Shown here: positions 8,804 through 23,503 of the stretch, piece by piece | Layout: every line of letters begins with the position of its first letter | How positions within the stretch are numbered: the stretch's first letter is position 1 | Notes under the pieces: generated by a model | Database searches by the model: none | Told to the model about the DNA's origin: nothing | What the model saw: only the letters and a program-made list of their open reading frames with translations | NCBI RefSeq assembly: GCF_900142915.1 | Contig: NZ_FRCM01000003.1 | Location: 372,504 to 436,503 of the forward strand | Length of the DNA stretch: 64,000 bases | Direction: 5' to 3' | DNA from: Mucilaginibacter sp. OK098 | GTDB taxonomy: Bacteria > Bacteroidota > Bacteroidia > Sphingobacteriales > Sphingobacteriaceae | Translations under genes and position numbers: made by a program

Positions 8804-9085
8804 TTATTCGGTTATTTTAACACCTTTCCAAAACGCCACATAGCCGGTTATGTTTGCTGCTGCGGGTTTAGGCTCGGGATAATACCATGCTGCATCGGGG
8901 TTTTGCATTCCGTCAACATCCAGGCTGTAGTATGATGCCAGGCCTTTCCATGGGCAGGTAGTATGCACAGGTGAAGGCTTAAGGTATTCGACCTTTACAC
9001 TGTCTATCGGGAAATAATGATTATTTTCAACCACAACGGTATCATTGCTTTCGGCAATTACCTGGTTGTTCCATGTAGCTTTCAT
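8804..9085 (-). CDS. DUF427 domain protein
   Basis: A 93-residue protein that is all DUF427: the motifs FPIDSVKVEYLKPS, TTCPWKGLASYYSL and DAAWYYPEPKPAA are diagnostic. There is no signal peptide, so it is presumably cytoplasmic. The biochemical function of the family is not established; the conserved CPWKG and Tyr/Trp residues suggest a small beta-fold ligand or nucleotide-binding pocket. It is the first gene of the six-gene operon leading to egtD and lies only 2 bp before the reductase, so it is translationally linked. The ATG at 9083-9085 follows an AT-rich leader with TATCTTTA about 30 bp upstream, one base from the -7 consensus. Confidence 0.9.
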   Translation of the reverse strand: MKATWNNQVIAESNDTVVVENNHYFPIDSVKVEYLKPSPVHTTCPWKGLASYYSLDVDGMQNPDAAWYYPEPKPAAANITGYVAFWKGVKITE

Positions 9086-9132
9086 AATTAGTATGTATTT
9101 ATTTATAAAGATAGGTGGTTAATTTGAATTTC

Positions 9133-9278
9133 AAGTCGGAAAAGTCAGCAAAGTCCGGAAGACCGTAAAGTCAGGCCGGTAAAAAAGAAGAGACCGGAAG
9201 CCTGGAAACTGTAATGGAATTGCCACATTTTTCAGCTTAAAATGCAGCTTCTTCCGGACTTTCGGACTTTTTCGACTT
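9133..9278. repeat. Inverted repeat with 30-bp arms upstream of tRNA-Glu
   Basis: The arm 9133-9162 (AAGTCGGAAAAGTC...GTCCGGAAGA) is nearly the reverse complement of 9250-9278 (TCTTCCGGACTTTCGG...). The two share an exact TCTTCCGGACTTT/AAAGTCCGGAAGA block and are separated by about 87 bp. The internal GACCGGAAGCC repeats the same theme. Such agtccggaa spacers look like a lineage-specific intergenic repeat. The 305-bp stretch 9086-9390 holds only this repeat and the tRNA promoter. Confidence 0.55.
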
Positions 9279-9327
9279 TCGGACTAAAAAAATTTCAAAT
9301 AATATTTTTAATTTATCATTAAACGTA

Positions 9328-9335
9328 TATCTTTG
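9328..9335 (+). promoter_or_regulatory. -7 promoter box for tRNA-Glu
   Basis: TATCTTTG matches the Bacteroidota -7 consensus TAnnTTTG exactly and lies 55 bp before the first base of the tRNA. The region 20-25 bp upstream is a T-rich ATTTTTAATTT rather than a clear TTTG -33 box. Confidence 0.6.
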
Positions 9336-9390
9336 CAATCCCAAAATAAGGGTTACCAAATCCAAAATCATTGGGAAAATGCCTTAAAAA

Positions 9391-9465
9391 GGCCCGTTCG
9401 TCTAGGGGTTAGGACGTTAGATTTTCATTCTAGAAACAGGGGTTCGATTCCCCTACGGGCTACCA
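9391..9465 (+). tRNA. tRNA-Glu (anticodon TTC)
   Basis: The cloverleaf can be drawn by hand. The acceptor GGCCCGT (9391-9397) pairs with ACGGGCT (first pair G-T); the D arm is GTCT/GGAC; the anticodon stem TTAGA/TCTAG encloses loop TTTTCAT with anticodon TTC at 9424-9426; the T arm is AGGGG-TTCGATT-CCCCT. Discriminator A and an encoded CCA end at 9465. It is transcribed from the TATCTTTG box upstream and followed by an intrinsic terminator. Its 3' half is overlapped by the C-terminal codons of a serine recombinase remnant on the other strand, a sign of use as an integration site. Confidence 0.96.
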
Positions 9466-10429
9466 GAGGGGAAAGGTTATCAAAAGATAACTTTTCCCCT
9501 TTTTTTATGCTTCGTAACTGCCTGTTAATCTGCAAGATAAACTCAAGTAGTTCGCTAAGTCGAGGGGTTCGATGTGCCTTTCCGTCGAAACACAGATTTT
9601 TAGGGTACATCGAACCGATCAGTTTACGCTTTTCAACGATACCAGCAGATTTATAATGCAGCTGTATGTTGGAATATTTTTCGATAACAATATCCAATAA
9701 GCCTTCGATAGTTTTCATTCCATCGGCCTTATTAGGCATGTCTGCAAGCTTTGCTTCCAGTATCCTTAAGGCTTCGCTGCATTCTGATTTAATTGCCTTA
9801 AAGTCCTCCGCATCTATATCTTCCATCATAAACCGCTTACGGGCATCGGAGAGTATTTTCTCCTGTTCTTCAATATGCTCAGCTATAACTCTGCGTCCGT
9901 CTGATCCCGTTTTATGTTCTGATTGAAAGACATCCATTACTATTTGTTTATAGAAATCACCGATACCGGGAGCAAGCTGAAAGTTCAACAACTCGTTCTC
10001 AAAGTACTCGTTGACAGTTGCCGCCTTAAAGCGGCATTTGCACTTGCCTGTGCAATGGTAATAGTGAAAGTAATTACCATGCCTGCCTCTTGATGCGCTG
10101 CCGGTAAGCATCCGCTGGCAATCAGGGCACTCTAAAAAGCCCCGTAGCGGCAACATATCTCTCGAAACGAACTTAGTAGCCGTTTGTCTTTTATTTCCGT
10201 TCAATACGTCCTGAACCTCATAAAACAAGGCCTCAGATATAATCGGCTCATGCTGTCCCTTAACGAACTGGATTTCTTCATCTTCATATGGTGGAACAAC
10301 GATGGTTCCGCAATAAATAGGGTTACGAATGATTTTCCAAAAGTTATTTCTTTCACATTTCAAACCTTTGATACACCGCCGATTCAGAGCTATTTCCATT
10401 CGGGTAATTAGTTGGCCAGGGTAATTCAC
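9425..10429 (-). pseudogene. Truncated large serine recombinase, catalytic domain missing
   Basis: An open frame of 334 codons beginning with GTG, preceded directly by an in-frame TGA. It corresponds to the C-terminal part of a large serine recombinase: the end of the Recombinase domain (FWKIIRNPIYCGTIVVPPY, KGQHEPIIS), a zinc ribbon (LECPDCQRML ... YHCTGKCKCRF) and a coiled-coil region (EEQEKILSDARKRFMMEDID). The N-terminal resolvase domain with the catalytic Ser and Arg is absent, and the region upstream is occupied by the SnoaL-like gene, so it cannot recombine DNA. The last codons (SPLVARRGIEPLFLE) are read antisense through the terminator and the 3' part of tRNA-Glu, the usual appearance of an integrase gene adjoining its tRNA attachment site. 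Confidence 0.82.
9468..9506 (+). terminator. Intrinsic terminator after tRNA-Glu
   Basis: GGGGAAAGGTTATC (9468-9481) pairs with GATAACTTTTCCCC (9486-9499) around an AAAA loop, with one G-T pair, and is followed by seven T. It begins three bases after the tRNA CCA. Confidence 0.9.
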
Positions 10430-10455
10430 TCACTGCATCTCATCTAAACAGGGAT

Positions 10456-10986
10456 TTACGGCGTTGACAATCTTTTGTCTTCCCAATAAATAACCAGTTT
10501 TCTTTTTACAAACAGCCATAGGTTATTTTGACGGGTATAAGTATCATAATAACGAATAGCTTCTGTTTGTAATGTCCTTTTCCCGTCTTCAAAAAAGATA
10601 TGATGGGCAAGACATTGGACGGTCCCGGTTGTATCATCCCCGAATTTGATCGAGTTCTGTCCGTTAAGATGAAACGTCATATCATATTTTTTTAGGCCAT
10701 TGAACACTTCTTCTAATTGTTTGCGCCCTTTCAACACGAAAACAGGCTTACTTGTATCGGGCTCTGACCTATAAATTTCCAGCGTACCATTTTCAACAAA
10801 AAGAGCCGCCTGCCGTTGAGCATTGGTCCTGTCCGCATAATAGGCAAAACTGTCAACTAACTGGCGTATAGCCATGTAATTTCTGAATTCATTTGAATTT
10901 AGTTGCGTTACGGAATCCGGGACGGACTGCGATTTTACAGAGAAAGCCTGTGTTATAAATAACAGAATGATTGTTACATTTTTCAT
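10456..10986 (-). CDS. Exported SnoaL/NTF2-like protein
   Basis: A 176-residue protein with a signal peptide (MKNVTIILLFITQAFSVKSQS) and a SnoaL-like fold: the helix NYMAIRQLVDSFAYYADRTNAQRQAALF, then ENGTLEIYR and a strand-rich half ending TRQNNLWLFVKRKLVIYWED. Members are ligand-binding or small isomerase/dehydratase folds; no catalytic assignment is possible. It stands alone between the recombinase remnant and the SRPBCC-RibD gene on the same strand, inside the tRNA-Glu-associated accessory region. Confidence 0.8.
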   Translation of the reverse strand: MKNVTIILLFITQAFSVKSQSVPDSVTQLNSNEFRNYMAIRQLVDSFAYYADRTNAQRQAALFVENGTLEIYRSEPDTSKPVFVLKGRKQLEEVFNGLKKYDMTFHLNGQNSIKFGDDTTGTVQCLAHHIFFEDGKRTLQTEAIRYYDTYTRQNNLWLFVKRKLVIYWEDKRLSTP

Positions 10987-11126
10987 ATGGTGGATTTGAA
11001 TTTGCCGACCCTCAGCTTTTATATATCGTCCTGGATCATTAATCTATTGATGATTTGTTAAGGAAATTTTCAAAAACTTAATTCGTTAGTTTCAGTGACC
11101 GCTAACATCCTGTCAGCGGTTCGTTG

Positions 11127-12203
11127 TTATTGCCTGTCCACTGTGTAATTCAGTTCAGTTACCCCGCAAGTAAATTGTCGGGTAGTCAACAGGTTTAGTT
11201 TTATTTTGTCTTTGATGTCAGTAAACAATGGAATGCCTTGTCCAAGAATAATTGGATTAACAAATAGCCAGTAGCCATCAATTAAGTTCTGTTGAATAAG
11301 TGCATGTGTGGCTGTCGGGCTGCCAAAAAGCAGGATTTCTCCACCTGCCTGTTGTTTTATTTCGTTTATTTTATCCGAAACGTTGTCGCTGATAATTGTT
11401 GTATCAGTCAAACCCGCGTCTTTCATTGTTTTCGATAAAACAACCTTGTGAGCTTTGTTATACCACTTTGAATGTTCCATGTCGTGCTTGCTCGCATCCG
11501 GCTTGTCTCCTGCGGTGGGCCAGTAATTTTCCATCATCCGGTAAGTTACGCGTCCATATAACGCCGTATCGGTTTCGCCTATCCGCTTACCGACATGATC
11601 AAAAATTTCTTCACCAAGTTTGATCCAGTTCATCTCTCCATTCGGTCCTGCCACAAAACCGTCAAGCGATATGTGCATAAATGAAATTATCTTTCTCATA
11701 TTTTCTATTTTTTTTGGTTTATTAATGGGTTTGTTACTTGCTAATATTTTAATATAGTTTTCAAGTCGATCTAAAGTCTGCTTGGCGCCTTCAATGGCCT
11801 TAACCCTTCTGTTTAATTCTTCAATAATTGCTTTTGACTTGAACACTGACTTCATTGTCAATAATGTTTTTCCTTCAACCTCCTCAAATAAAATGGACAC
11901 TGTAAAGTTGTAATCTTCGCTTTCCCCGAAATGTTTATAAGATAAAAGGGAAGGTTTCATTACTTCCAAGTACTCAATTTTGTTATCAAAATCCTGCCCC
12001 CAACCATGCATAACAGAGTCCAAAATTTTGCCGGTTCCTACATTCATTGATCTTATAGTTAGCGAAAACCCATCCGGCCCCCACCATTCCTTGATATGTT
12101 CCGGGGTGGTCCATACTTCCCAAACCAAATCCCTTGGGGCATCGAGAATCTTTGTATGTATAAGCATGTTCTCTTCTTGTTTGAACGTATTATACTTTTC
12201 CAT
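11127..12203 (-). CDS. SRPBCC (AHSA1-type) domain fused to RibD C-terminal (dihydrofolate reductase-like) domain
   Basis: One open frame of 358 codons with two domains that are normally separate proteins. Residues 12-150 are an AHSA1/START-like SRPBCC domain (ILDAPRDLVWEVWTTPEHIKEWWGP). Residues 168-358 are a RibD_C/DHFR-like domain (ISFMHISLDGFVAGPNGEMNW, LYGRVTYRMMENYWP, GGEILLFGSPTATHALIQ, VNPIILGQGIPLF). The junction ASNKPINKPKKIENM is Lys/Pro-rich; M168 (codon at 11702-11700) could be the ancestral start of the second gene. The substrate of the reductase-like part is unknown. The gene follows arsR by 4 bp, a common ArsR-SRPBCC pairing, and is probably repressed by it. The start could also be M13. 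Confidence 0.85.
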   Translation of the reverse strand: MEKYNTFKQEENMLIHTKILDAPRDLVWEVWTTPEHIKEWWGPDGFSLTIRSMNVGTGKILDSVMHGWGQDFDNKIEYLEVMKPSLLSYKHFGESEDYNFTVSILFEEVEGKTLLTMKSVFKSKAIIEELNRRVKAIEGAKQTLDRLENYIKILASNKPINKPKKIENMRKIISFMHISLDGFVAGPNGEMNWIKLGEEIFDHVGKRIGETDTALYGRVTYRMMENYWPTAGDKPDASKHDMEHSKWYNKAHKVVLSKTMKDAGLTDTTIISDNVSDKINEIKQQAGGEILLFGSPTATHALIQQNLIDGYWLFVNPIILGQGIPLFTDIKDKIKLNLLTTRQFTCGVTELNYTVDRQ

Positions 12204-12207
12204 TTTT

Positions 12208-12534
12208 CTATTTCTTCTTTTTTTGAATTTTAGCCAGATAGCTTTCCAACGAGTCCAGTTTATTGTCCCAAAATTTTCGGTATTGATCTACCCAATCCGT
12301 GACTTCACTTAATTTTTCGAGTTTAGCTTCGCAATATCTTTCCCTGCCTTGCTTTTTGATCACAATAAGACCGCAATCATTAAGGTATTGGACATGTAAT
12401 GAAACTGCTTGCCGGGTAATATTAAACTCCTGGGCAATAGCATTAACATTGAGTGATTTCTGAGCCAGCATACCTATAATTTGTCTACGAGTCGGATCTG
12501 CTATTGCTTGAAAGATGTCTCTTGTTTGTATCAT
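12208..12534 (-). CDS. ArsR-family winged-helix repressor
   Basis: A 108-residue ArsR regulator when started at ATG 12532-12534 (MIQTRDIFQAIADPTRRQII). The frame is open 56 codons further upstream, but that part is not conserved-looking and would cover the promoter. The HTH is LNVNAIAQEFNITRQAVSLHVQYLNDCGLI, followed by the wing KQGRERYCEAKLEKL. No metal-binding Cys motif is present in the recognition helix, so it belongs to the non-metal ArsR group that usually partners SRPBCC proteins, as here. It probably represses its own two-gene operon through the TGCGCAA repeats at its promoter. Confidence 0.9.
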   Translation of the reverse strand: MIQTRDIFQAIADPTRRQIIGMLAQKSLNVNAIAQEFNITRQAVSLHVQYLNDCGLIVIKKQGRERYCEAKLEKLSEVTDWVDQYRKFWDNKLDSLESYLAKIQKKKK

Positions 12535-12536
12535 AA

Positions 12537-12586
12537 TGCGCAAGTAATTGCTTGCAAATATATGCGCAAGGCTTGACTTGCGCAAA
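12537..12586 (-). promoter_or_regulatory. arsR promoter embedded in three TGCGCAA repeats
   Basis: On the minus strand TATATTTG (12562-12555) matches the -7 consensus TAnnTTTG exactly, and TTTG (12586-12583) stands 20 bp upstream as the -33 box. Three TGCGCAA heptamers (plus-strand 12537-12543, 12563-12569 and 12579-12585) cover the -33 box, the spacer and the start region. The leader to ATG 12534 would be only about 14 nt. This is the expected layout of an autorepressed operon; binding by the adjacent ArsR is inferred. Confidence 0.65.
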
Positions 12587-12818
12587 TTTATTTTAACTAT
12601 TCCTATAAAAAATAGACCAATTATCGTTTTCGGGCTTTGAGACAATACACTATACAGGAATTTGTTCCTTTTTCTAAAACGATGCTGATGCTGCACTTCC
12701 ATTAATGCGCTTACGATTTCAAAAAATAATTGACTACCGCGTACAAAACCAAGTAATCACATAATACCGGATTCCGATTAATATTTCAGCTTGCTAAAAG
12801 CCGAAAATTTTGCAAAAA

Positions 12819-12850
12819 GGGGTTCGAAAAGCTTCCCCTAGGGGCTACGA
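12819..12850 (+). other. Degenerate copy of the tRNA-Glu 3' end (attachment-site-like)
   Basis: GGGGTTCGA, a 5-base insert AAAGC, then TTCCCCTAGGGGCTACGA: apart from the insert, this matches the tRNA-Glu tail GGGGTTCGATTCCCCTACGGGCTACCA (9439-9465) at all but two positions. Like the tRNA it is followed directly by an intrinsic terminator. It may mark the far end of an element of about 3.4 kb integrated at tRNA-Glu. It is not a complete tRNA, since no matching 5' half is found before it. Confidence 0.55.
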
Positions 12851-12880
12851 AGCCGCTTTACGAAAGTAGAGCGGCTTTTT
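12851..12880 (+). terminator. Intrinsic terminator
   Basis: AGCCGCTTTAC (12851-12861) and GTAGAGCGGCT (12866-12876) form an 11-bp stem with a GAAA tetraloop, followed by a run of T. It follows directly on the tRNA-tail-like sequence. Confidence 0.85.
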
Positions 12881-12894
12881 GCATAAATGTTATC

Positions 12895-12945
12895 GCGAGT
12901 GTGGACACTCGCAACTATTTTTCGGTTAAGCGTGGACGCTTAACC
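12895..12945. repeat. Two adjacent hairpins with TGGA loops
   Basis: GCGAGTG-TGGA-CACTCGC (12895-12912) and GGTTAAGCG-TGGA-CGCTTAACC (12924-12945) are perfect palindromes with the same loop, 11 bp apart. They look like REP-type elements of the kind mobilised by Y1 (IS200-like) transposases; none is encoded here. The rest of 12946-13228 has no recognisable feature. Confidence 0.6.
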
Positions 12946-13228
12946 GGGCGTGCGGAAATAATTTCCTGATAATCAGTAAGTTATTTTTATTTTAGGCCTT
13001 CCTTAAAAAAACCGAACCTGAATTTTTGACTATAAAATCCAAGTAAAACAGGCCATCTAAGCTCTAAAACGGACTATTTTCCAGACCTCTTAATCAAATC
13101 TTCCAAAAACACTCAAAATTAACTTGCGTCTTTACTACGTGTTTTTAATTTAGAAAGACGCCTTATTTACCTTGTAAACGATTGTAATAAAGTCATAAAC
13201 AACTTGGATTGGAGATTCTGATGAACCA

Positions 13229-13275
13229 GACCACCTGATTCCGGCACAAGCTGACCATCAATTCCGGGGCAAACT
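13229..13275. repeat. Remnant of an IS21-type terminus
   Basis: Two tandem imperfect units, GACCACCTGATTCCGG+CACAAGCT (13229-13252) and GACCATCAATTCCGG+GGCAAACT (13253-13275). GACCACC/GATTCCGG multiple repeats are typical of the ends of IS21-family elements in this phylum. No IstA/IstB gene is nearby, so this is debris. Confidence 0.45.
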
Positions 13276-13278
13276 GTT

Positions 13279-13302
13279 AAACGCTCATTGGGGCGTTTTT
13301 TT
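13279..13302 (+). terminator. Intrinsic terminator
   Basis: AAACGCTC-ATTG-GGGCGTTT, an 8-bp stem with one T-G pair, followed by T5. It insulates the YdeI gene from upstream transcription. Confidence 0.75.
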
Positions 13303-13389
13303 ATTGCTTTTGGGGCTTTCTGAATCTGATTTCAAAAACATTTCTGTAAGTTAGTATCGGCTGTCCTGCTTTAAATGGACGGAGGCTAA

Positions 13390-13977
13390 ATGAGTACTAT
13401 AGAAAACAAGAAAGATGCTCCCATCAAATCATTTGCGTCTGCAAGTACGTGGGAGGAATGGCTTGCTGCCAATCATGCAAAGTCAGACGGTATCTGGCTG
13501 CGCATTTTCAACAAAGAGTCGGGTGAAAAAACCGTTACATATGCAGAAGCACTCGACGAAGCACTCTGTTATGGTTGGATTGACGGACAAAAGAAGAAAG
13601 TTGACAGTGATTCCTGGATCCAGAAATTCACGCCGCGCCGGGCACGTAGTATATGGTCTAAACGAAACGTCGAACATATTGAACGGCTTACGGACGAAAA
13701 GAGAATGAAAGCCGCCGGATTGGAGGCCTTTGAAGACGCAAAGAAAGACGGGCGACTAGCGGCCGCATATGATTCACCTTCCAATTCGACAACCCCTGAC
13801 GATTTTCTCAAACTCCTTGAAAAAAACAAAAAGGCAAAAGCTTTTTTCAACTCGTTGAACAAAACCAACAAATATGCAATCACCTGGCGGCTTCAGACCG
13901 CCAAAAAACCGGAGACCCGCGAAAAGCGAATGAACATTATCCTGGAGATGCTGGCTAAGGGCGAGAAATTTCATTAG
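13390..13977 (+). CDS. YdeI/OmdA-family protein
   Basis: A 195-residue protein of the YdeI (bacteriocin-protection / OmpD-associated) family. WEEWLAANHAKSDGIWLRIF, YAEALDEALCYGWIDGQKKKVD, IQKFTPRRARSIWSKRN and the C-terminal helical NKTNKYAITWRLQTAKKPETREKRMNII-type segment are diagnostic. No signal peptide, so cytoplasmic. Related proteins have been linked to peptide resistance, but the molecular activity is unknown. The start has a strong Shine-Dalgarno-like GGAGG six bases before ATG, unusual in this phylum and perhaps a sign of transfer. It lies between two terminators within accessory DNA. Confidence 0.88.
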   Translation: MSTIENKKDAPIKSFASASTWEEWLAANHAKSDGIWLRIFNKESGEKTVTYAEALDEALCYGWIDGQKKKVDSDSWIQKFTPRRARSIWSKRNVEHIERLTDEKRMKAAGLEAFEDAKKDGRLAAAYDSPSNSTTPDDFLKLLEKNKKAKAFFNSLNKTNKYAITWRLQTAKKPETREKRMNIILEMLAKGEKFH

Positions 13978-14530
13978 GTAAAAGAAACAGAAAGCAGCAC
14001 CGGATTCTCTTTTACTCCTTCGTCAGCAAACCCACCTGGCAGTGATTGAGCTATATTTTAGACAAAAATCGCCTGAAGAAAGATTACTTGAGCTATATAA
14101 AAGTGTCGAGGGTATTGAGCAAAAGATACCGGAATTAATAGCTGCCATAACTAAAATAGTTCCCATTCTCGCACTCTAAGCACTACTAAAAGAGAAACCC
14201 CTCAAGTCGGAAGATTTTTTTGGAGGATTTACTACTATAGCTATGAGCGTAAAGCAACTCATGATACTTCAAACCCAACTCATTGCGTAAGGTGCCAGGA
14301 TATGTGCTACTAAGAGGGATATTCGCGGCGCTGATTATCAAAACCTTAACATTATGTTAAGTAAAAAACGCAGAAATTTGAAGCCCTGGAAAAAGAGTAC
14401 CTTGAAAACCGCACATAACACATTGAATGTCAGCGAGTAAATACTTAGGTTTGAAACCTTAAAAACTCACTAATCGTTTCAAATCTTTAAGAAAAAAGTT
14501 CGAGATTCTGCCACTCACGGCTACAAACCA
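13978..14530. other. Gene debris without an intact gene
   Basis: A GTG-started frame of 45 codons (14042-14179) reads VIELYFRQKSPEERLLELYK and continues to a hydrophobic end PILAL; it is open upstream for about 15 more codons without a start. Another short frame (14242-14289, MSVKQLMILQTQLIA) follows. Both look like relics of a degraded gene rather than functional genes. At 14498-14525 GTTCGAGATTCTGCC...CGGCTACA loosely recalls a tRNA tail. Nothing else is recognisable. Confidence 0.35.
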
Positions 14531-14532
14531 TC

Positions 14533-14580
14533 ACAAACAAGTTGCTAACAATCTCATTATTAGCAACTTGTTTGTTTTAT
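14533..14580 (+). terminator. Strong inverted repeat, probable terminator
   Basis: ACAAACAAGTTGCTAA (14533-14548) and TTAGCAACTTGTTTGT (14560-14575) are perfect 16-bp complements around an 11-base loop, followed by TTTAT. Between here and 14701 no gene is seen; a run of nine C lies at about 14592. Confidence 0.65.
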
Positions 14581-14701
14581 GACCATCTCCGTCCCCCCCC
14601 CTTCCCCAATAAGCTATAATTAATTGATAGTCAGTTAGATGGTTGAAAATTAGGATTCCAATTTCCGTATGGGCTCAATTGGAATTGTATTAGGACACCC
14701 G

Positions 14702-14869
14702 TCATTTATCCATGTTATTTTCTTCAGATAAATCGCCATCCTCTTCACTCATAATATGGTTTACAATTATTTGAGCGATCAGAGTCATTAACTTATCTTC
14801 TTCGTTATGTTTCGAAAAAAAGCTTTCATCGTTTTCTATAATTCGTTTAGTAGGCCTTTTATTTTTCAT
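14702..14869 (-). CDS. Small hypothetical protein (55 residues)
   Basis: An ATG-started frame MKNKRPTKRIIENDESFF followed by SKHNEEDKLMTLIAQIIVNHI and an acidic tail, ending in TGA. The basic N-terminus, central amphipathic helix and acidic tail are protein-like, and small proteins with a xxNEEDxLxxLIAxIIV helix occur in accessory DNA of this phylum. It is divergent to the zinc-ribbon nuclease gene (15043). A plus-strand frame over part of the same DNA (14807-15016) is less convincing. No family assignment. Confidence 0.45.
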   Translation of the reverse strand: MKNKRPTKRIIENDESFFSKHNEEDKLMTLIAQIIVNHIMSEEDGDLSEENNMDK

Positions 14870-15042
14870 TTTAAGGAGCCTATAAAATCTAAAGAAAACA
14901 ATTGGATTGATTCAACACTCGTGATTGGCATATACATTCTAAAGCTTCAGCATAAAGCAATCGCTATAAACGAGCGCAAGTTGGAGGCGTTAGTTTCTGT
15001 AAGATTGGTAAAGTAACTTTATAACTTTTACATTATCATTTT

Positions 15043-18015
15043 ATGTTATTGAACGAATTTGAGCAATTACTAGATCACAACAAAGCAACAGATTGGATGA
15101 TAGCCCCAGGGCTTTACGTCCCCGAAAGTTTAAATAATAAAGATTACATCGTTTTCAAGTGCAAAACGTGCGGTTCGATAAAAAGACATTCAGTAGGTAA
15201 CGTTAAATATTCATTACTTAATGATCCATATCATTGCCGCTGCCAGATTTGTAGGTTAAAAATAAACCAAGAACTAACTAGTTTAAGATTATTGAAAAAA
15301 GCTGAGGCAGCTATGGCTGAATCTGCCGGTTTTCCATGGTACTTAGATGGATCTAAAATAAACCATGATGTGTTCTATAATGTTAAAACACCCTTGCCAT
15401 TGCTTTGTAAAACATGTAATAATTTAAAAATGCATAGCTTTAGCAATGTGCTCACAGCCATCAAAAAGCCTGGCCATATTATTTGTCAACCTTGCTCGGA
15501 AAATCAAAGATTAAAACTTAAGCTTGAGAAATGGAGGCAAAAAGTTAACTTGATTACCTGTAATGAATATGATCTTGACACCTCAATAACAGCCAGTGGG
15601 TATAAAGTAATCCATCTGCTATGCGGGAAATTTTATTATATAAGGGTGCCTAATTCTTTAAAAAAAGGATTATGTCCATTTTGCAAACAAACTAACACAT
15701 CCATATTTCAAAGACTTAAAGATGAAAATCAACTTATTACATACATCGCTCAAAAAACAGCTGATCAATTAAAACTTCACCAGGTAAACAAGGCCGATAA
15801 GATTTTAGTAGTTTCATGTAATTTACACCCCAAGCAGGGCACTTACCCGCTGCCCTGGAGTTCTTTTGTAATTTCTCATAGAAAAAAAGGGCCGATGCTC
15901 TGCCCATTATGTAACAAACAAAGGCTCAGAAGAACAACTTATGAGCAATATAATCGGCAGCTTGAAAAGATTCAGTTAAGGATTGAAATGCCTGCAGAAA
16001 AGGAAAAGATTGATACGAAAGAGAAAGTTCTGCATTGGTGCACTGCCAGGCAAGGTCATCCTGCCTTTTATGCAAGTCCTTACCAGGTATTGTCTAAAAA
16101 TAAAAGGTGTTTGTTCTGCTATGACAAAGTTTCCTTTCATAAGAACTATGATTTTATTAAGATCTATACGGAAATGGATGACGATCGATTTTTTACACAC
16201 GCTGGAAAAAAGTTCAGGCTTTTATCTTCAAAAGCAGAAATTGAAAGCCAGATAAAGCCTTTTCAACACATTGGCCAAGTATCTATAAGACTTAACGAAT
16301 TAACATGTCACTTACACAACGAATATAATGTTACCTGGGGCAACTTTTACTATAATAATGCAGCCTGTGCCAAATGCACACGAGAGAACAATGTTTCATA
16401 TGCACACAGCTATTACCAGGCATTACTTGCCTATTTTAATTTTAATTACATTCCGGAATTCCCTATAAAGATCAATTCAAAAACGACTTACAGAATAGAT
16501 TTCAAATTATCAACGCAACCTAATTACCTGGAAATAGATAGTAGCCTTCATGTAAATAAAGGATGGGATAGAGATCAAAAAATGATCAGGGCTTATACAG
16601 AAAGAGACAGGATAAAGGATAGCAAATTAGGTGGCAATATCGAGCGCATTAAGTTGTACAATAACAAAAATCAACACCTGCCTCTAAAAACTCAAATACA
16701 AATAATTGAAACGGCTTTCTTAAATAGGGCTTTGCAAAATAATATTCCAATAATGGCAACTGATATTCAAACTGCAAAGCGGGATCCTGTTTTTTTTCGA
16801 AATGCACGTATTGTTAATTACATCAGAAAGCTTGAATATTACCATCAGGGACACATTGAATTTAAAAATAAGACCCATCTCTCTGTTTTGAATGCATTGG
16901 AAACCAATGAATCTGAGTTCTTCTGTAAAATTCATCAGCAAGCTTTTGTCAGGAACCTTTATTCTGTGGCAAAATTGGATTTTTTATGCCCAATATGCAG
17001 GAACAAAATAATACTTGGGCAGCAAAAAGACTATTATTTAAGTCAGGATAAAATTCAACAGATATCTGAATTTGTTGATGTTCGGTTTGACGGAGACTTT
17101 GCTATTGATACGGATAGATGGGCACAGGATGTGCATTTTTTCCAAACCATTGTTTTTCCTGCCCAGTGGCATTCCGAAAAAAGAACGGTTTTTATATCTA
17201 TCAGGGAATTAATTAGTTTACCTGTTGAAGATGTGTATAAAAGATTAAAGAAAACTAAATACATATCTCCTTACATAAAACATAAACGCTATTTTAATAG
17301 CTATTGTCCTGTAGAAATTAACAGTATAGAATTTACAGAGCGGCTAAACGCTAACAAGAACAGTGAGATTATGTTGAGTAGCTATCAGCATGAGGCCAAA
17401 TTAATTAACAGGTTAATGAAAAAATCAAATAAAGGAGGTTATATTGAGCAGTTGATTGATAATAATGAAAAAAAAGCCCTGCCATACACTCATAAAACCG
17501 CTGATAACGCTAAGCTTTGTTTGGCTACGTTTGACAGAAAAATAATCCCCTTTTTTGCCGATTTGTCTGATATTGAACTGTTAACCCCCAGAAAGAATTA
17601 TGCATATAATAAGCAATATTTACTTTTAAGAGATTTAAGATGTGGCCATCGCTTTTATTGCAGCTGGAACTGGATAACAGTCAGAAAAAAGATGAATAAG
17701 GGTATCCAATGCCAGCACAAAGATTGTTTTGATGTTTACTATAAGCAAGCTTATAGACCCGGCAATAAAATGGCTGACAAAAAAATACTGGAGTATTTTA
17801 GGAATTTATTTAACGCGCAATATTATCCAGTTTATCCAGACCAGATAATTAAAATAAGAGAACCTATTGAAGTTTCTCATTTGCCTACAGGTAGAAAATT
17901 TAAGACGAGCGTCGACAATTTCAGAAGAGGGAAATTTAGATGCATATTCAAGAAGCTTTCCTCAATGGAGTTATCACAACTTTTTCCGTTGCAGACAACC
18001 AATAATATCAGATAA
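15043..18015 (+). CDS. Multi-zinc-ribbon protein with embedded Vsr/DUF559-like nuclease core
   Basis: A 990-residue protein with no close named family that I recognise. Zinc-ribbon-like CxxC pairs recur: C40/C43 with C67/C70; C122/C125 with C148/C151; C211/C214; C287/C290; C356/C359; C442/C445; and a CPIC pair after the nuclease region. The modules resemble the DUF4379-type probable zinc ribbons. Residues 472-540 carry a nuclease signature: E472, D486 in YRIDFKL, E497-I-D499 with H503 in LEIDSSLH, then D522 in ERDRIKDSKLG and IERIKLY, the pattern of Vsr/DUF559 (EDxHD) endonucleases. The second glycine of the usual EIDG is Ser. The gene is strikingly AT-rich compared with its neighbours, lies alone in accessory DNA and has a TAACTTTA box about 25 bp upstream. 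Likely a DNA endonuclease, perhaps for defence or homing; function unproven. Confidence 0.75.
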   Translation: MLLNEFEQLLDHNKATDWMIAPGLYVPESLNNKDYIVFKCKTCGSIKRHSVGNVKYSLLNDPYHCRCQICRLKINQELTSLRLLKKAEAAMAESAGFPWYLDGSKINHDVFYNVKTPLPLLCKTCNNLKMHSFSNVLTAIKKPGHIICQPCSENQRLKLKLEKWRQKVNLITCNEYDLDTSITASGYKVIHLLCGKFYYIRVPNSLKKGLCPFCKQTNTSIFQRLKDENQLITYIAQKTADQLKLHQVNKADKILVVSCNLHPKQGTYPLPWSSFVISHRKKGPMLCPLCNKQRLRRTTYEQYNRQLEKIQLRIEMPAEKEKIDTKEKVLHWCTARQGHPAFYASPYQVLSKNKRCLFCYDKVSFHKNYDFIKIYTEMDDDRFFTHAGKKFRLLSSKAEIESQIKPFQHIGQVSIRLNELTCHLHNEYNVTWGNFYYNNAACAKCTRENNVSYAHSYYQALLAYFNFNYIPEFPIKINSKTTYRIDFKLSTQPNYLEIDSSLHVNKGWDRDQKMIRAYTERDRIKDSKLGGNIERIKLYNNKNQHLPLKTQIQIIETAFLNRALQNNIPIMATDIQTAKRDPVFFRNARIVNYIRKLEYYHQGHIEFKNKTHLSVLNALETNESEFFCKIHQQAFVRNLYSVAKLDFLCPICRNKIILGQQKDYYLSQDKIQQISEFVDVRFDGDFAIDTDRWAQDVHFFQTIVFPAQWHSEKRTVFISIRELISLPVEDVYKRLKKTKYISPYIKHKRYFNSYCPVEINSIEFTERLNANKNSEIMLSSYQHEAKLINRLMKKSNKGGYIEQLIDNNEKKALPYTHKTADNAKLCLATFDRKIIPFFADLSDIELLTPRKNYAYNKQYLLLRDLRCGHRFYCSWNWITVRKKMNKGIQCQHKDCFDVYYKQAYRPGNKMADKKILEYFRNLFNAQYYPVYPDQIIKIREPIEVSHLPTGRKFKTSVDNFRRGKFRCIFKKLSSMELSQLFPLQTTNNIR

Positions 18016-18140
18016 CCTCAGGCACGCACTAGTATTTAAAAATAAAGGCATAGCTTCCGTTGATTACTTCTTGATTTACAATCATTGATTTAGCGTCAAA
18101 TTACAGGAAAGGCCTATTGTACCATAAAGCAGAATTATAT

Positions 18141-18169
18141 AAAAGCAGGTAAAATCAAATCCTGCTTTT
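18141..18169. terminator. Bidirectional terminator between convergent genes
   Basis: AAAAGCAGG (18141-18149) and CCTGCTTTT (18161-18169) form a 9-bp stem between the stop of the nuclease gene (plus) and the stop of the phosphoesterase gene (minus), with A-rich and T-rich ends that serve both strands. Confidence 0.75.
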
Positions 18170-18175
18170 AGTATC

Positions 18176-20608
18176 TCAGTCATCGCCATCTTTAACCGGG
18201 GATAATTTCACAAAGGCGCTCCTCCGCGGTTCCGGCATCCGCTGCTGTGATCCTTTCACCGCTTTCCAGATAATTTCGTTTAACAACCGGTCGGGAGCGG
18301 CATCTGCTTTGGCAAAGTTAAATGATGCCGATTGTTTGGCCTCCTTATTCCAGGCGGTATTCCGTTGACTGATGTCAACAGTAGCATCATGGGCTGTGTA
18401 GGCAGTGCTATCGGGGATAGCTTGAAAACAATTCCACATGGGGGTGGCAGCGGCATCGTACTGGCTCATAGGGGGCAGCCCAAGGATCAATTCAATGGTA
18501 CGGAGCAGCCCCGAAGTGGAGTACATCGTGTGGTTAACGCTATGGCGTTTAACAAAAGGGCTGATTACCCAGGCAACGGAACGATGCGCATCTACATGAT
18601 CCGGACCGTCCTGGGCGTCATCTTCCAGGACAAAAATGGCCGATTCTTTCCAGATAGAACTATGTGATATATGCTCCACCAGCCTTCCGAGTGCCAGGTC
18701 GTTATCTGCTACCTGCGCTATTGGGCTATAAGCCCCCTTCGATAAGCCACTGGTATGATCATTAGGCAAATAGATCGTGTTAAAATGCGGAACATTTTGC
18801 TTTACCAGCAGAGAATCAAAGTCATGTTCAAAAATTTTTTCTCTGTATATATCCTGTATAGCCAGGTTCCAGCCGGGATATGCCTTGCAATAATGTTCGT
18901 CCTCCCTAAGCAGGCCAAGGGTAGGTTTACCAGTGTCCATAAACTCCCCGTAGTTTCGAAAAGAAACGCCGGCACGCTGGCAGTAATTCCATATAAACCC
19001 CAAAGGTGGGTTTGCAATCGGGCGACTGCCGTCAAAGTCATAATTACCTCCCCTGCCTGCATAATTGGAAGGCCAGTTCTTCTCCACAAAATCAGTAGCA
19101 TAGGCAGCCATCGACCAGTTGTGGCCATCGGCACTTACCTCAGCGTCTACATAAAAATTATCAAACAATACGTAGTCCTGCGCTAATTTATGGCCATTAG
19201 GCGTTATTTTCTTTCCAAAAAGACAAAGGCTGCTGTCTCCATTACCCTCCGGCATATCACCCAAAACCTGGTCGTATGTACGGTTCTCCTTCAATACATA
19301 GAATACATATTTAATTGGAGAAGTGCCACCGACTTTAACAGGAACCGGATTCCCTGTTTCGCCTGAAGGAGCGAGTTCCCGTTCTTTAGAATAGGGCGTA
19401 TTATCGTAAACCTGTTGGCTATAGTTGCTTTGGATAGCCGGGGTTGGGACAGGGATTACCGATAAGGTGCCTTTAAACATACTCCCAATATATTTTATCG
19501 GGCTGACTGGTGATTGAACACTGTTATTGCTCTTTTTATATTTTGCATCATCAAAAGATGGCTTTGCGCCAGGCTTGTACGGATTAGACATAGAGGACAT
19601 GCCTTTTCCGTTGGTAACCAGGATTTGTTTGCCCCACACACGCACACAAGTAGGATACCATCCCACAGGAATAAATCCCAGGGAACGACTATTGCCAGGA
19701 TCAGATACGTCAAATTCGGCAAGATAGTTATTATCTGCATTGGCAATATAAAGGATTTTCCCATCGGCAGACAAAGCAACACTGTTAGTAGCAGAGCCTA
19801 TTGGCGCATCAGGTGATAATGCCGTATGAAGTGTTTCAACTACTTCACGGGAGTTCAGGTTAATAACCGATACGGAATTAGAGCTGGCATTAGCAACATA
19901 TAGCCATTTACCTTTTGCATCAACTGCCAGATCTGTGGGATGTTCTCCGGTATTTACAGAATCTTTTAATATGTTTTTTTGGGTATCATATATCCATACT
20001 TTCTGACCGCCCCATGCGGAAATATACAGCTCCTTTTTTACCGGGTTCAGGATGCATGTATAGGCCTCAGCAGATAGTGCAACCTTATTCAATACCTTCA
20101 TCGTTTTAGTATCGCATACATACAAGGAGTTGTTTTCTTTAGTCACTACGTACATCCTTTCGTGTTTTTCGTCAAGGGTAAGCCCTGTAGGGCTTATCTT
20201 ATCATTAGGCCAGGGGCGGCCCAGTACAAGCGTATCTTTATTAATGAGGCTTTTTCCGGTATATTGATACCTGATAATAATATCATCATTACCACCAGAG
20301 GCGTATAAATAATGTTTACTGAAGGCAAGCCCCAACCAGGCATCATTTACATTCATAGTAGCCACTAACCTTTGTTCCTGCAAATTGATCAGATCAATTG
20401 TTGGGTGTCCGTTACCATTGTTTGTTACCGCTACATGGATGCCATCCGGCGCAATGACCATATTGAGCGGCAGATCGCTGCTTAACGGGATTGAATTTCC
20501 GGCAGGTGAAAGGAACCAGCCATTTGGAAGCTGAACCCTTTGCGCAACAAGCTGATTGCTTAGCAGCAAGAAGCCACCACAGATAAACCAAAAAAAACAA
20601 TTTCTCAT
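18176..20608 (-). CDS. Exported beta-propeller (YncE-like) / phosphoesterase fusion
   Basis: An 810-residue exported protein: signal peptide (MRNCFFWFICGGFLLLSNQLVAQ), then a YVTN/YncE-type seven-bladed propeller over about 40-340 (repeats such as WLYVANASSNSVSVINLNS and ILYIANADNNYLAEFDV), then an alkaline-phosphatase-superfamily phosphoesterase domain over about 430-740 (KYVFYVLKENRTYDQVLGD, FVLEDDAQDGPDHVDAHRS). The ENRTYDQ motif and the Asp/His-rich DDAQDGPDHVDAHR are the metal-site motifs of the phospholipase-C-like phosphoesterase family. Probably periplasmic or surface-exposed hydrolysis of a phosphoester; substrate unknown. It has its own promoter at 20720 but lies just downstream of the metallophosphoesterase. 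Confidence 0.9.
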   Translation of the reverse strand: MRNCFFWFICGGFLLLSNQLVAQRVQLPNGWFLSPAGNSIPLSSDLPLNMVIAPDGIHVAVTNNGNGHPTIDLINLQEQRLVATMNVNDAWLGLAFSKHYLYASGGNDDIIIRYQYTGKSLINKDTLVLGRPWPNDKISPTGLTLDEKHERMYVVTKENNSLYVCDTKTMKVLNKVALSAEAYTCILNPVKKELYISAWGGQKVWIYDTQKNILKDSVNTGEHPTDLAVDAKGKWLYVANASSNSVSVINLNSREVVETLHTALSPDAPIGSATNSVALSADGKILYIANADNNYLAEFDVSDPGNSRSLGFIPVGWYPTCVRVWGKQILVTNGKGMSSMSNPYKPGAKPSFDDAKYKKSNNSVQSPVSPIKYIGSMFKGTLSVIPVPTPAIQSNYSQQVYDNTPYSKERELAPSGETGNPVPVKVGGTSPIKYVFYVLKENRTYDQVLGDMPEGNGDSSLCLFGKKITPNGHKLAQDYVLFDNFYVDAEVSADGHNWSMAAYATDFVEKNWPSNYAGRGGNYDFDGSRPIANPPLGFIWNYCQRAGVSFRNYGEFMDTGKPTLGLLREDEHYCKAYPGWNLAIQDIYREKIFEHDFDSLLVKQNVPHFNTIYLPNDHTSGLSKGAYSPIAQVADNDLALGRLVEHISHSSIWKESAIFVLEDDAQDGPDHVDAHRSVAWVISPFVKRHSVNHTMYSTSGLLRTIELILGLPPMSQYDAAATPMWNCFQAIPDSTAYTAHDATVDISQRNTAWNKEAKQSASFNFAKADAAPDRLLNEIIWKAVKGSQQRMPEPRRSAFVKLSPVKDGDD

Positions 20609-20645
20609 AACTATAATATTAAGTGGCTTTTTATTTCAGTACTTT

Positions 20646-20674
20646 ACTCAAGACAAATTTAATTTGCCTTGAGT
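20646..20674. promoter_or_regulatory. 29-bp palindrome in the leader of the phosphoesterase gene
   Basis: Half-sites ACTCAAGACAAATT and AATTTGCCTTGAGT flank a central T with a single mismatch. It lies between the -7 box (20720-20713) and the start codon (20608) on the minus strand, so it could be an operator or an mRNA hairpin. It could also act as a weak terminator for the upstream gene. Confidence 0.5.
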
Positions 20675-20712
20675 ATTATACCTTATAAATGAGTATTGCC
20701 TACGTTAAAAGA

Positions 20713-20720
20713 CAAAGATA
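20713..20720 (-). promoter_or_regulatory. -7 promoter box for the phosphoesterase gene
   Basis: Minus-strand TATCTTTG matches TAnnTTTG exactly and stands 105 bp before the ATG at 20608. Confidence 0.55.
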
Positions 20721-20753
20721 CTTTGTAAAAGTAAACAGGATATTCCCTGCTTG

Positions 20754-21692
20754 TTAATAAGAATGCGGGAAGTATTCATTTTCAACGGTTCCATCATCAT
20801 AAAAATTCAATATCGCATAACCCGGCGGGGTTTCCAGGTAATAGCCGGGTCCGGCTGATTCAGCATCGCCTTTGCCCCACCAGAACCCGCTCATTGCGCC
20901 ATTACAGCAATATAAAACATCGTTATAACGGGTTTGATCGGATAAATGGTTGTGCCCGCTTAAGCAAATTTTCACTTTGTCGCGGTGTTTGTAAAACAAA
21001 TCTTTTAACTTTTTGCAATCTGAATGGCCCCCACCAACCAGCACCTGCGTAGTACCTAAAATTGGATAATGTGACATGAGCAATACAGGAGCAGACGAAG
21101 GTATTTTTTCCAGTTCACCCTGTAACCAGCTATACTGTTCCTGATCCAGCGAAATATTGCTGTTGTTACCATCAAGCACAATAAAATGCCAGTTCTTTTT
21201 GGTGAAGCTATAATACCGGTGTGGAATTTTCAATCGTTTAACCACATATTCTTTCCCGTACATTTCATCCTCTTTAGAAGGAGCCTTCCACCATGGGTCA
21301 TGATTGCCGATACAGCTATGCACCTCATATTTATCAAGTAATGCTGTGCATTCATCCCAAATGCTCCATTGCCGGATCACCTGGTCGTGCTTTACGTCAT
21401 CATAAGATGCATCATTAATAGAATCCCCTCCATTTAAGAAAAAATCGGGCTTGTGCTTTGTTATGATGTGCTTTAAGCAGCTTTTAAACCTCTCCGGTGC
21501 ATTATCCCCCTCCCTAATGTGTACATCAGTAATATGCGCCACGGTGAGCACTACCTTTTTACCTTTTTTTCCTTCGCCGTTATTTATGGAAGCCAGGGCA
21601 GGCAGCCCGCCGGTTACCACCATGCCGGTGGCCAGTCCCGCTGCCTTTAATAAAGATCTCCTGTTTAGTTTCATCATTTCATTTTGTATCAT
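20754..21692 (-). CDS. Tat-exported calcineurin-like metallophosphoesterase
   Basis: A 312-residue protein with a twin-arginine signal (KLNRRSLLKAAGLATGMVVT) and all metallophosphoesterase motifs in order: HITDVHIREG, NGGDSINDA, GNHDPW, LMSHYPI and CLSGHNHLSD. These bind a dinuclear metal centre, and Tat export fits a cofactor-loaded enzyme. Likely a periplasmic phosphomono- or diesterase; substrate unknown. It starts 23 bp after susD and is probably the third gene of the susC-susD operon. The start may be M6 or M7 rather than M1. Confidence 0.92.
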   Translation of the reverse strand: MIQNEMMKLNRRSLLKAAGLATGMVVTGGLPALASINNGEGKKGKKVVLTVAHITDVHIREGDNAPERFKSCLKHIITKHKPDFFLNGGDSINDASYDDVKHDQVIRQWSIWDECTALLDKYEVHSCIGNHDPWWKAPSKEDEMYGKEYVVKRLKIPHRYYSFTKKNWHFIVLDGNNSNISLDQEQYSWLQGELEKIPSSAPVLLMSHYPILGTTQVLVGGGHSDCKKLKDLFYKHRDKVKICLSGHNHLSDQTRYNDVLYCCNGAMSGFWWGKGDAESAGPGYYLETPPGYAILNFYDDGTVENEYFPHSY

Positions 21693-21715
21693 AAAACAGA
21701 ACTACTTACGGCCTG

Positions 21716-23503
21716 TTACCAGCCGAATATTTGTTTAAGATTTGGATTCAGTATTACCTGCTGTTGTGGTATGGGGCGATAATAGTATTTAGGTTCCTGA
21801 AAATCGCGGGTTACCGATTCGGTTACAATGAAACTCCCGGTATTAACATTTTTTAAATACACGGTAGCGTCAGAACCAATTGTACCTGTGCGGTAATAAA
21901 TTAGCGGCACCCCCAGTGAGTTCTTTTCCTTTTTGTCTTCCGCCGGGATGGTTGAAGATGCGTCTATCAAAATAATATCTTCAATGCCATCACCGGTTAA
22001 ATCGTATTTTCCCAAGCCTGCGAAATACATTCCTTCTGGGCTTTTGGCTAATAATTTTCCGGCCTTCCACCTCATCAGGTCATCATACCTTGTATTTTCA
22101 AATGCAAATTCCACTCTCCGCTCTCTTCTTATCTCTACTATCACTCCAATGTTTGATCCTATATTACCAAATTGTTGTTGTAATAATACATCGGGAGACG
22201 AATTTGCCTGTGCCATATTAAGATCGGGTAATCCAGCTCTTCTTCTGATAAGGTTCACCGATGCATCAAGTTGTTGTTGCGTTAAGGTACCCAGTTCGGC
22301 AAGCGCTTCAGCGTAGCTTAGCAACACTTCTCCATATCGGTATACAGGGAAATCCACCCCATTTACAGTACTGGCATCGGTGCTGTTCACGTATCCCTTT
22401 AATTGGTGATAACCTGTAAAATTTTTATTTAAACTCTGGATGTACGGCTGTGTATTCGGAACCCTGATCCATCCCGGATAAGCCATCGTTTGGGCAAGCC
22501 TGGAATCACGGTTCTGAAACTCATTTACAAAATTCATTTTATCATAATTTGGCTGATCTGTAAAACGGCTGCCATCTTTCATCAGGTAAGTTTGGATCAG
22601 GTCTTTAGCGGGGGCTTGCTCATAATCGCCAAAAACCACCCCATTTACATTTTGGCTCCGGCTTTTACTAAAGTCAAAAATATTGGCCAAAATAACTTCC
22701 TTATTTGCGGTCAGATCCTGGCTGTTGAACAATGCAGCATAATCCTGATCAGGTTTTCCTGTATTATAAATAGCGAAATTTCCTGAGGCCATAATATCAC
22801 CAGCTATTTTAACAGCGGTTGCAAGAAAAGTATTTGCAGAGCCTGTTAAATTTAGTTCTGAGTGATATTTACGGTAAGTGCCTTCATAAAGCGCCGTACG
22901 GGTATAAAACGCAGCTACTGCCCATTTCCCGGGTGTACCTGGCGCAACGCTTTCCCTGACATGCTGATAGGCAAAATCCAGATCAGCCATAACACTATCC
23001 ATAACCAGCGCCCTTGGGTCACGTGCCTTGTATAAAGCCTTATCACCCGGGCTCAAAGTACCTGAGTACCATGGCACATCCGAAAAGCGTTTAATTTTAT
23101 CCATGTAAAATAATGCACGGTAATATTTAGCCAATCCTACATAATGATTTTTTATGTCCGCGCTAACTTTTGCTTTATTATAGTTTTCTAAAAAGTAGTT
23201 AATATCACGTAACCTGCTCCAATCCCACCCCGTTGTAATATTTTGTGAATTGGCACTCCCTGCCATCACATTTTTCACTTCTACATTAGCGGTAGTTGCA
23301 ACGTTATCGCTGCTTTGATCATTCAGGTAGCTATTCCTGTCTGGCATTGAAAGCAGGCCATTAACGTATAACGCGAGGTCATTTTCTGTATTAAAGAAAA
23401 GATTTGGTGAGATAGCCGTTTGCGGAAAACGGTCGAGTCCACTTTTTTTGCAGGCAGTAAATGCGATTGCAATAAACAGGATATATATAGTATATTTCTT
23501 CAT
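21716..23503 (-). CDS. SusD/RagB-family nutrient-binding lipoprotein
   Basis: A 595-residue SusD homologue: lipoprotein signal (YILFIAIAFTACKKSG, lipid-modified Cys at residue 18), TPR-like helical body (GLAKYYRALFYMDKIKRFSDVPWY) and C-terminal RagB/SusD motifs (PVYRYGEVLLSYAEALAELG, ERRVEFAFENTRYDDLMRWKAG, YRPIPQQQVILNPNLKQ). It would cap the outer-membrane SusC transporter encoded 37 bp upstream and bind the ligand at the surface. The ligand is not a proven glycan; the two phosphoesterases downstream suggest a phosphorylated or organic-phosphate compound. Confidence 0.96.
   Translation of the reverse strand: MKKYTIYILFIAIAFTACKKSGLDRFPQTAISPNLFFNTENDLALYVNGLLSMPDRNSYLNDQSSDNVATTANVEVKNVMAGSANSQNITTGWDWSRLRDINYFLENYNKAKVSADIKNHYVGLAKYYRALFYMDKIKRFSDVPWYSGTLSPGDKALYKARDPRALVMDSVMADLDFAYQHVRESVAPGTPGKWAVAAFYTRTALYEGTYRKYHSELNLTGSANTFLATAVKIAGDIMASGNFAIYNTGKPDQDYAALFNSQDLTANKEVILANIFDFSKSRSQNVNGVVFGDYEQAPAKDLIQTYLMKDGSRFTDQPNYDKMNFVNEFQNRDSRLAQTMAYPGWIRVPNTQPYIQSLNKNFTGYHQLKGYVNSTDASTVNGVDFPVYRYGEVLLSYAEALAELGTLTQQQLDASVNLIRRRAGLPDLNMAQANSSPDVLLQQQFGNIGSNIGVIVEIRRERRVEFAFENTRYDDLMRWKAGKLLAKSPEGMYFAGLGKYDLTGDGIEDIILIDASSTIPAEDKKEKNSLGVPLIYYRTGTIGSDATVYLKNVNTGSFIVTESVTRDFQEPKYYYRPIPQQQVILNPNLKQIFGW

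Follow-up and report, generated by a model that had tools for sequence, protein, structure and literature searches.

Based on a computational analysis, we suggest that the 990-residue protein encoded in a 64,000-nt stretch of the genome of Mucilaginibacter sp. OK098 (hereafter, the window) is probably a giant, free-standing bacterial offshoot of a phage-type lineage of homing endonucleases that combine zinc ribbons with an EDxHD/Vsr-like nuclease, and that it is itself of the homing type. Two further copies of the gene are known, one in Sphingobacterium chuzhouense (locus L008, on the same contig as L002) and one in a Proteiniphilum MAG (L007). Although their hosts belong to different orders, i.e. 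Sphingobacteriales and Bacteroidales, respectively, these two copies share 79% DNA identity, which is confined to the gene, and both are roughly 3.2-kb single-gene inserts, located behind serine tRNA genes and absent from sister genomes. The kind of protein is already known; the size, the internal nuclease and the setting are new. Thus, the view of an earlier note on this DNA that such a system is undescribed is correct only in part, the layout being published in a smaller form (PMC12350094).

The open frame is a real gene under selection, because the window protein shares 56% identity with each of the other two copies and these two differ from each other with a dN/dS of 0.13 (at a dS of 1.0, which is near saturation). 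The gene is rare. A scan of genome_contigs (84,980 species) with two seven-residue patterns, which could miss more distant relatives, returned two loci, L008 and L007. Counting the genome of the window, a homologue is present in 2 of 399 genomes of the family; in the phylum and class sets, the latter searched with a profile of the three copies, the gene is present in 1 of 395 genomes each, in both cases the window's own. Two candidates were rejected as homologues, i.e. G232 (L003) among the family genomes, where a weak match lies beside unrelated long frames, and G722 among the phylum genomes, which has a 57-residue frame with a stop. Close relatives were found neither by tblastn among phages at E 1e-5 and plasmids at E 1 nor in scans of viral_contigs (0 of 8 and 0 of 99 stretches).

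The protein contains nine CxxC pairs (residues 40, 67, 122, 148, 211, 287, 356, 442 and 649). By chance, 1.0 would be expected on average, and none of 10,000 residue shuffles reached nine, the highest count being six. The earlier reading of a 990-residue frame with at least seven CxxC-based ribbon modules is therefore borne out, as is that of an AT-rich gene (34.5% GC versus 39.9% for the window). By eye, the CxxC pairs and their C..H or H..C partners make up about seven ribbons, six before the nuclease and one at residues 628-652, followed by an eighth (C867/H869 with C890/C895) and a degenerate ninth near residues 944-967 (Table 1). The Proteiniphilum copy keeps 30 of the 32 cysteines of the window protein, while in the S. 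chuzhouense copy an out-of-frame deletion appears by eye to have removed most of ribbon 1. The PHROGs profile phrog_559, a phage family labelled "HNH endonuclease", matches the window protein in four stretches (E 1.1e-25), the best of which covers residues 29-241; at E <= 1, it matches only two of the three copies. A ribbon profile built from 25 modules of phage proteins gave 14.0 bits for the window protein, 27.4 for the Proteiniphilum copy and 12.6 for the S. chuzhouense copy, compared with a best score of 11.2 bits when the window protein was shuffled 1000 times with its cysteines fixed (976 reported). At the sequence level, these data support an array of ~60-residue zinc-ribbon modules akin to those of the phage ribbon and EDxHD/Vsr homing endonucleases. 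Judging from their kinship to the CapR/DUF723-type zinc domains of homing endonucleases (PMC10448857), the ribbons probably bind DNA. A full-length AlphaFold2 model of the protein was poor (pLDDT 39.8) and was set aside.

Table 1. Positions of the features discussed in the text (window coordinates; residue numbers refer to the 990-residue protein)
Feature	Position	Strand	Basis or remark
tRNA-Glu	9391..9465	+	its 3' end (about 9463) is the limit of the DNA shared with relatives
Serine recombinase frame without resolvase domain	9425..10429	-	C-terminal codons overlap tRNA-Glu
Ribbon-array nuclease gene, 990 aa	15043..18015	+	homologues; phrog_559 E 1.1e-25
Ribbon 1 (C40/C43, C67/C70)	15151..15258	+	mostly missing from S. 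chuzhouense copy
Ribbon 2 (C122/C125, C148/C151)	15394..15501	+	
Ribbon 3 (H191/C194, C211/C214)	15604..15690	+	top match to phage ribbon profile, 12.1 bits
Ribbon 4 (C259/H262, C287/C290)	15808..15918	+	
Ribbon 5 (H331/C333, C356/C359)	16030..16125	+	
Ribbon 6 (C422/H425, C442/C445)	16297..16383	+	adjoins nuclease, as in phage proteins
Predicted EDxHD/Vsr-like PD-(D/E)XK nuclease domain, residues 447-565	16381..16737	+	profile, alignment, model, structure matches
Predicted active site D486, E497, D499, H503, D522, K525	16498..16617	+	alignment
Ribbon 7 (C628/H631, C649/C652)	16915..17004	+	C-terminal of nuclease
Ribbon 8 (C867/H869, C890/C895)	17632..17733	+	
Degenerate ribbon 9 (H946, C967)	17869..17949	+	

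The nuclease lies between ribbons 6 and 7. D486, E497, D499, H503 and D522, the residues that had been singled out from the sequence, are found at these positions and are kept in all three copies. Whole-protein searches against NCBIfam and PADLOC gave no match and those against Pfam gave matches below the cut-off only, as did Pfam searches with the nuclease fragment and with the other two copies; sequence searches of solved structures gave no credible relative. A profile of seven phage domains gave a non-significant match to the nuclease (probability 1.6%, E 0.03), and a profile of 49 sequences was used instead. For this profile, a motif pattern was run over 79 viral and three bacterial loci, loci without the pattern being left out, and gave 60 frames with 49 distinct domains, two of them bacterial. 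Against 15 sliding windows of the three-copy alignment, the 49-domain profile matched residues 421-551 best (probability 83%, E 8.5e-6), while the other 14 windows reached probabilities of at most 33%. The match is in register, running from the last CxxC to D486, E497, H503 and then D522. The adjoining CxxC contributes to this score, the probability being 41% for residues 438-570 and falling to 12% (E 0.0025) for residues 452-570, in which the CxxC is left out.

In an alignment of 29 rows, comprising 26 of 44 viral domain stretches and the three giant copies, D486, F487, E497, H503, D522 and K525 are invariant. The pattern used to preselect the viral rows requires the D, E and H positions, which leaves D522 and K525 as the only unforced ones there; the three giant copies were not selected in this way. 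D486, E497, H503, D522 and K525 are the putative counterpart of the EDxHD catalytic set. At D499, the viral rows have D, Q or N. All three giants have His455 in place of the helix Glu (SKGE) found in nearly all of the viral rows and, therefore, nuclease activity is not assured.

A model of residues 435-567 that was built from the 29-row alignment, viral rows included, has a pLDDT of 80.7 and a pTM of 0.73; from residue 453 onwards, a helix is followed by three strands, a second helix, a further strand and a last helix. Among 705 chains, the best VIA-align 2 match was the homing endonuclease I-Bth0305I (Z 8.9, 93 residues, 3.4 A), ahead of Vsr (Z 8.7, 115 residues, 4.0 A), a mitoribosomal protein (Z 8.6) and a second Vsr entry (8.3), in this order. 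These values are slightly above the best Z of 7 to 8 that the program states as usual for models without a clear match, and the fold and the sequence evidence are therefore to be weighed together. Foldseek gave no match at E <= 0.001, the best being AbaSI at 0.013 and Vsr at 0.63. Thus, residues 453-567 are predicted to form a PD-(D/E)XK core with I-Bth0305I and Vsr as the nearest matches, in line with the Vsr-like nuclease proposed in the earlier note, which had named a fold lacking such a core, or replacement of the motif residues in homologues, as evidence against it; both homologues keep the set from D486 to D522. Of three regions of the protein, the nuclease is the best conserved, with 68% identity between the window copy and the Proteiniphilum copy versus 54% in each of the other two.

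Kinship to phage proteins points to a homing-type enzyme. Starting from weak tblastn matches in phages (35 records, best E 0.006), we read six phage loci, whose genes are annotated as Hef-like homing endonuclease (AR9), VSR endonuclease (iF6), HNH endonuclease (Iacchus), homing endonuclease (CP30A, two genes) and hypothetical (SBSphiJ4, VL10). In all seven phage proteins that were read, several zinc ribbons in a row precede an EDxHD/Vsr-like domain. One of the six loci lies inside an RNA polymerase gene and three lie beside split terminase pieces; the annotation of the other two shows no split gene. PMC12350094 describes from phage introns a family with thousands of UniProt hits and mostly unannotated relatives, in which three to five CapR/DUF4379/DUF723-like domains of ~60 residues precede a C-terminal EDxHD/Vsr-like domain. 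Like these enzymes, the window protein has ~60-residue zinc modules in a row before the nuclease. However, it is 990 residues long, and its nuclease is internal with ~420 residues and more ribbons behind it. Moreover, unlike the phage-intron enzymes, it is encoded on a bacterial chromosome, and no intron was found, in that no Rfam intron family reached its gathering score in window positions 9000-22000, L007 or L008. Of 50 distinct ribbon and EDxHD frames collected with the motif pattern, not one contains a CxxC at a distance of over 60 residues C-terminal of the first catalytic Asp, and none of the open frames exceeds 714 residues, the length of the longest; by contrast, each of the three giants has one such CxxC. 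Because of the internal nuclease, we regard the giant protein as a variant rather than a strict member of the ribbon and EDxHD/Vsr homing endonucleases, although it would act in the same manner. The catalytic domain is alike in predicted fold to that of I-Bth0305I at 12% identity, but the DNA-binding part is far larger and the helix Glu of the phage relatives is His455; it is likewise alike in fold to the Vsr mismatch endonuclease at 11% identity, except that here the nuclease is embedded in a ribbon array.

Related genes also occur in other genomes of the same bacterial family. In the genus of the window, genome G116 has a 514-residue ribbon and EDxHD frame (L191:4146-5687, minus strand, contig 17) that is likewise a free-standing chromosomal gene; however, its nuclease is C-terminal, it is half the size of the giant, and there is no tRNA gene in the 11 kb read. 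By eye, this homing-type gene lies between ribosomal/rpoA-like and dnaK-like genes, i.e. beside highly conserved genes. At none of the six ribbon or DUF559-type loci that were read in the family besides that of the window does the stretch covered (8.5-11 kb) include a tRNA gene, while a tmRNA gene is present at one; thus, adjacency to tRNA genes is not general. Proteins of 356-448 residues at L194:4040-5383 (minus), L195:4142-5485 (minus) and L196:3516-4583 (plus) share a similar nuclease-like end and have a different N-terminal part, and one of these three loci is near a tmRNA gene. Separately, the leucyl-tRNA synthetase of the window's genome (L006:214-3180, minus strand, G000 contig 6) contains an internal DUF559 nuclease-like domain (residues 453-557, Pfam E 2.8e-31). 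Matches of phrog_559 in frames of 1018-1314 residues in other family genomes may reflect the same arrangement, and in the open-licence literature we found no paper that pairs leucyl-tRNA synthetase with DUF559.

The insertion sites of the two relatives provide the second line of evidence. In S. chuzhouense, the gene lies ~0.5 kb 3' of a tRNA-Ser(GGA). We searched 80 Sphingobacterium genomes for this locus and analysed it in four others. In G226, the tRNA-Ser is followed by the next genes with neither the giant gene nor a tail copy between them; G223 and G090 also lack the gene, and the stretch absent from G090 measures about 3.26 kb (L008 9649-12905). In the search listing, the flanks of the locus are far apart in G286, G298, G175 and G346. 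The locus as a whole (L008:9396-12905, L051) is variable, and the fourth genome, G172, holds 10 kb of other genes there. Duplications of the tRNA tail are seen in L008, G090 and G172 and, thus, older events used this tRNA-Ser site. The Proteiniphilum contig begins within the tail of a tRNA, 187 bp upstream of the gene; in the sister genome G1118, the same 28 bases end an intact tRNA-Ser(CGA), followed by 55 bp and then the same DUF3127 gene. Of the five sister loci fetched, G1118 is the only one with a tRNA-Ser at this place (one of the others has a tRNA-Leu) and, therefore, it provides the single gene-less allele. Both relatives thus have occupied and gene-less alleles of the same site; for the window copy, we found neither an adjoining tRNA-Ser nor a gene-less allele. 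In the open-licence literature, at the level of listings, we found no bacterial homing endonuclease beside tRNA-Ser.

The window copy lies in accessory DNA, as the earlier note had proposed, because the DNA shared with relatives ends at a tRNA-Glu where a serine recombinase frame is located. This frame is probably the remnant of an integrated element that landed at the tRNA-Glu and then decayed. The further statement that the gene lies behind a tRNA gene is correct in that the tRNA-Glu is upstream, but the distance is 5.6 kb with other genes between. The immediate neighbours are of the YdeI/OmdA type upstream and of the phosphoesterase type downstream. A likeness of positions 14020-14440 to a recombinase, noted by eye, was dropped after BLAST and tblastn searches upstream of the gene found no recombinase debris and no tRNA-Ser tail. 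Short stretches at 13210-13276 and 12814-12884 match several places in the genomes of relatives and are perhaps interspersed repeats. An ArsR-type HTH regulator at 12208-12702 (minus strand) matches PADLOC Csa3/CARF models through its HTH domain (best E 1.6e-13) and is probably not a defence gene.

The setting could also be read in another way. The 3' ends of tRNA genes are common island sites for other reasons, and the gene could be a passenger of tRNA-integrating islands, brought in by an integrase-bearing element that later lost the rest, with the nuclease having another role in the island. The variable Sphingobacterium locus with its tail duplications and, in G172, other genes, the right border of L008 (about 12880-12905), which by eye looks like the spacer unit next to the tRNA, as expected of a decayed repeat, and the location of the window copy in DNA starting at a tRNA-Glu with a truncated serine recombinase all fit this scenario. 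We nevertheless consider it unlikely, because both inserts with a gene-less allele consist of one long gene without an integrase, BLAST detects a copy of the tRNA tail at neither right border, and homology between the two inserts is confined to the gene (79% DNA identity over L007 203-3158, and nothing else in the compared stretches).

The earlier note had left the choice between a homing-type enzyme and a single-gene defence system. In the latter case, the ribbons would read a motif or modification on invading phage or plasmid DNA and the internal domain would cut it. Such a role, to which the large ribbon-array protein, its patchy distribution, its accessory location and the first, weak Foldseek match to AbaSI, a restriction enzyme for modified DNA, would be suited, is in our view rather improbable: the protein matches none of the PADLOC families, 9 of 10 neighbours of the three copies have no PADLOC match and the tenth is the ArsR-type regulator, and the nearest kin are homing endonucleases. 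A domesticated DNA-binding regulator with a dead nuclease, for which CapR of phage satellites, derived from DNA-binding domains of homing endonucleases, is a published precedent (PMC10448857) and to which the His in place of the helix Glu would fit, is very improbable, since D486, E497, D499, H503, D522 and K525 are all kept in a nuclease that is the best conserved region, and three scattered copies in two orders are unlike a host regulator. Thus, homing is favored over defence by the kinship to phage homing endonucleases and the single-gene insertion behind tRNA-Ser genes, and defence has found no support.

In the homing model, a long DNA target would be contacted along its length by the six N-terminal and the two or three C-terminal ribbons, which would position the internal nuclease on it. 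EDxHD enzymes use metal ions to cut, and the target on which I-Bth0305I forms a dimer is nearly 60 bp long (PMC3943268). By analogy, the nuclease would be metal-dependent and would cut alleles lacking the gene, into which repair would then introduce a copy. The likeliest target would be the 3' region of tRNA-Ser, because the one-gene insert lies 3' of a tRNA-Ser in two of the three hosts. The right flanks of the inserts differ between hosts and, therefore, plain two-sided homing cannot explain transfer between orders; such transfer would require homology at the border next to the tRNA and end joining at the opposite one.

We speculate, as a tentative possibility, that the gene is a meganuclease-like selfish gene that targets the 3' ends of serine tRNA genes and that, because the tRNA-Ser sequence is shared among orders, it invades distant hosts without an integrase, using tRNA-side homology and other-side end joining. 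If so, this would add a new mode by which one-gene elements land at tRNA genes. A 990-residue protein whose nuclease is flanked by ribbons on either side, encoded by a lone insert behind tRNA-Ser genes in two orders, would provide a natural nuclease for long targets, and it would be a simple test case for the integrase-free spread of such genes across species.
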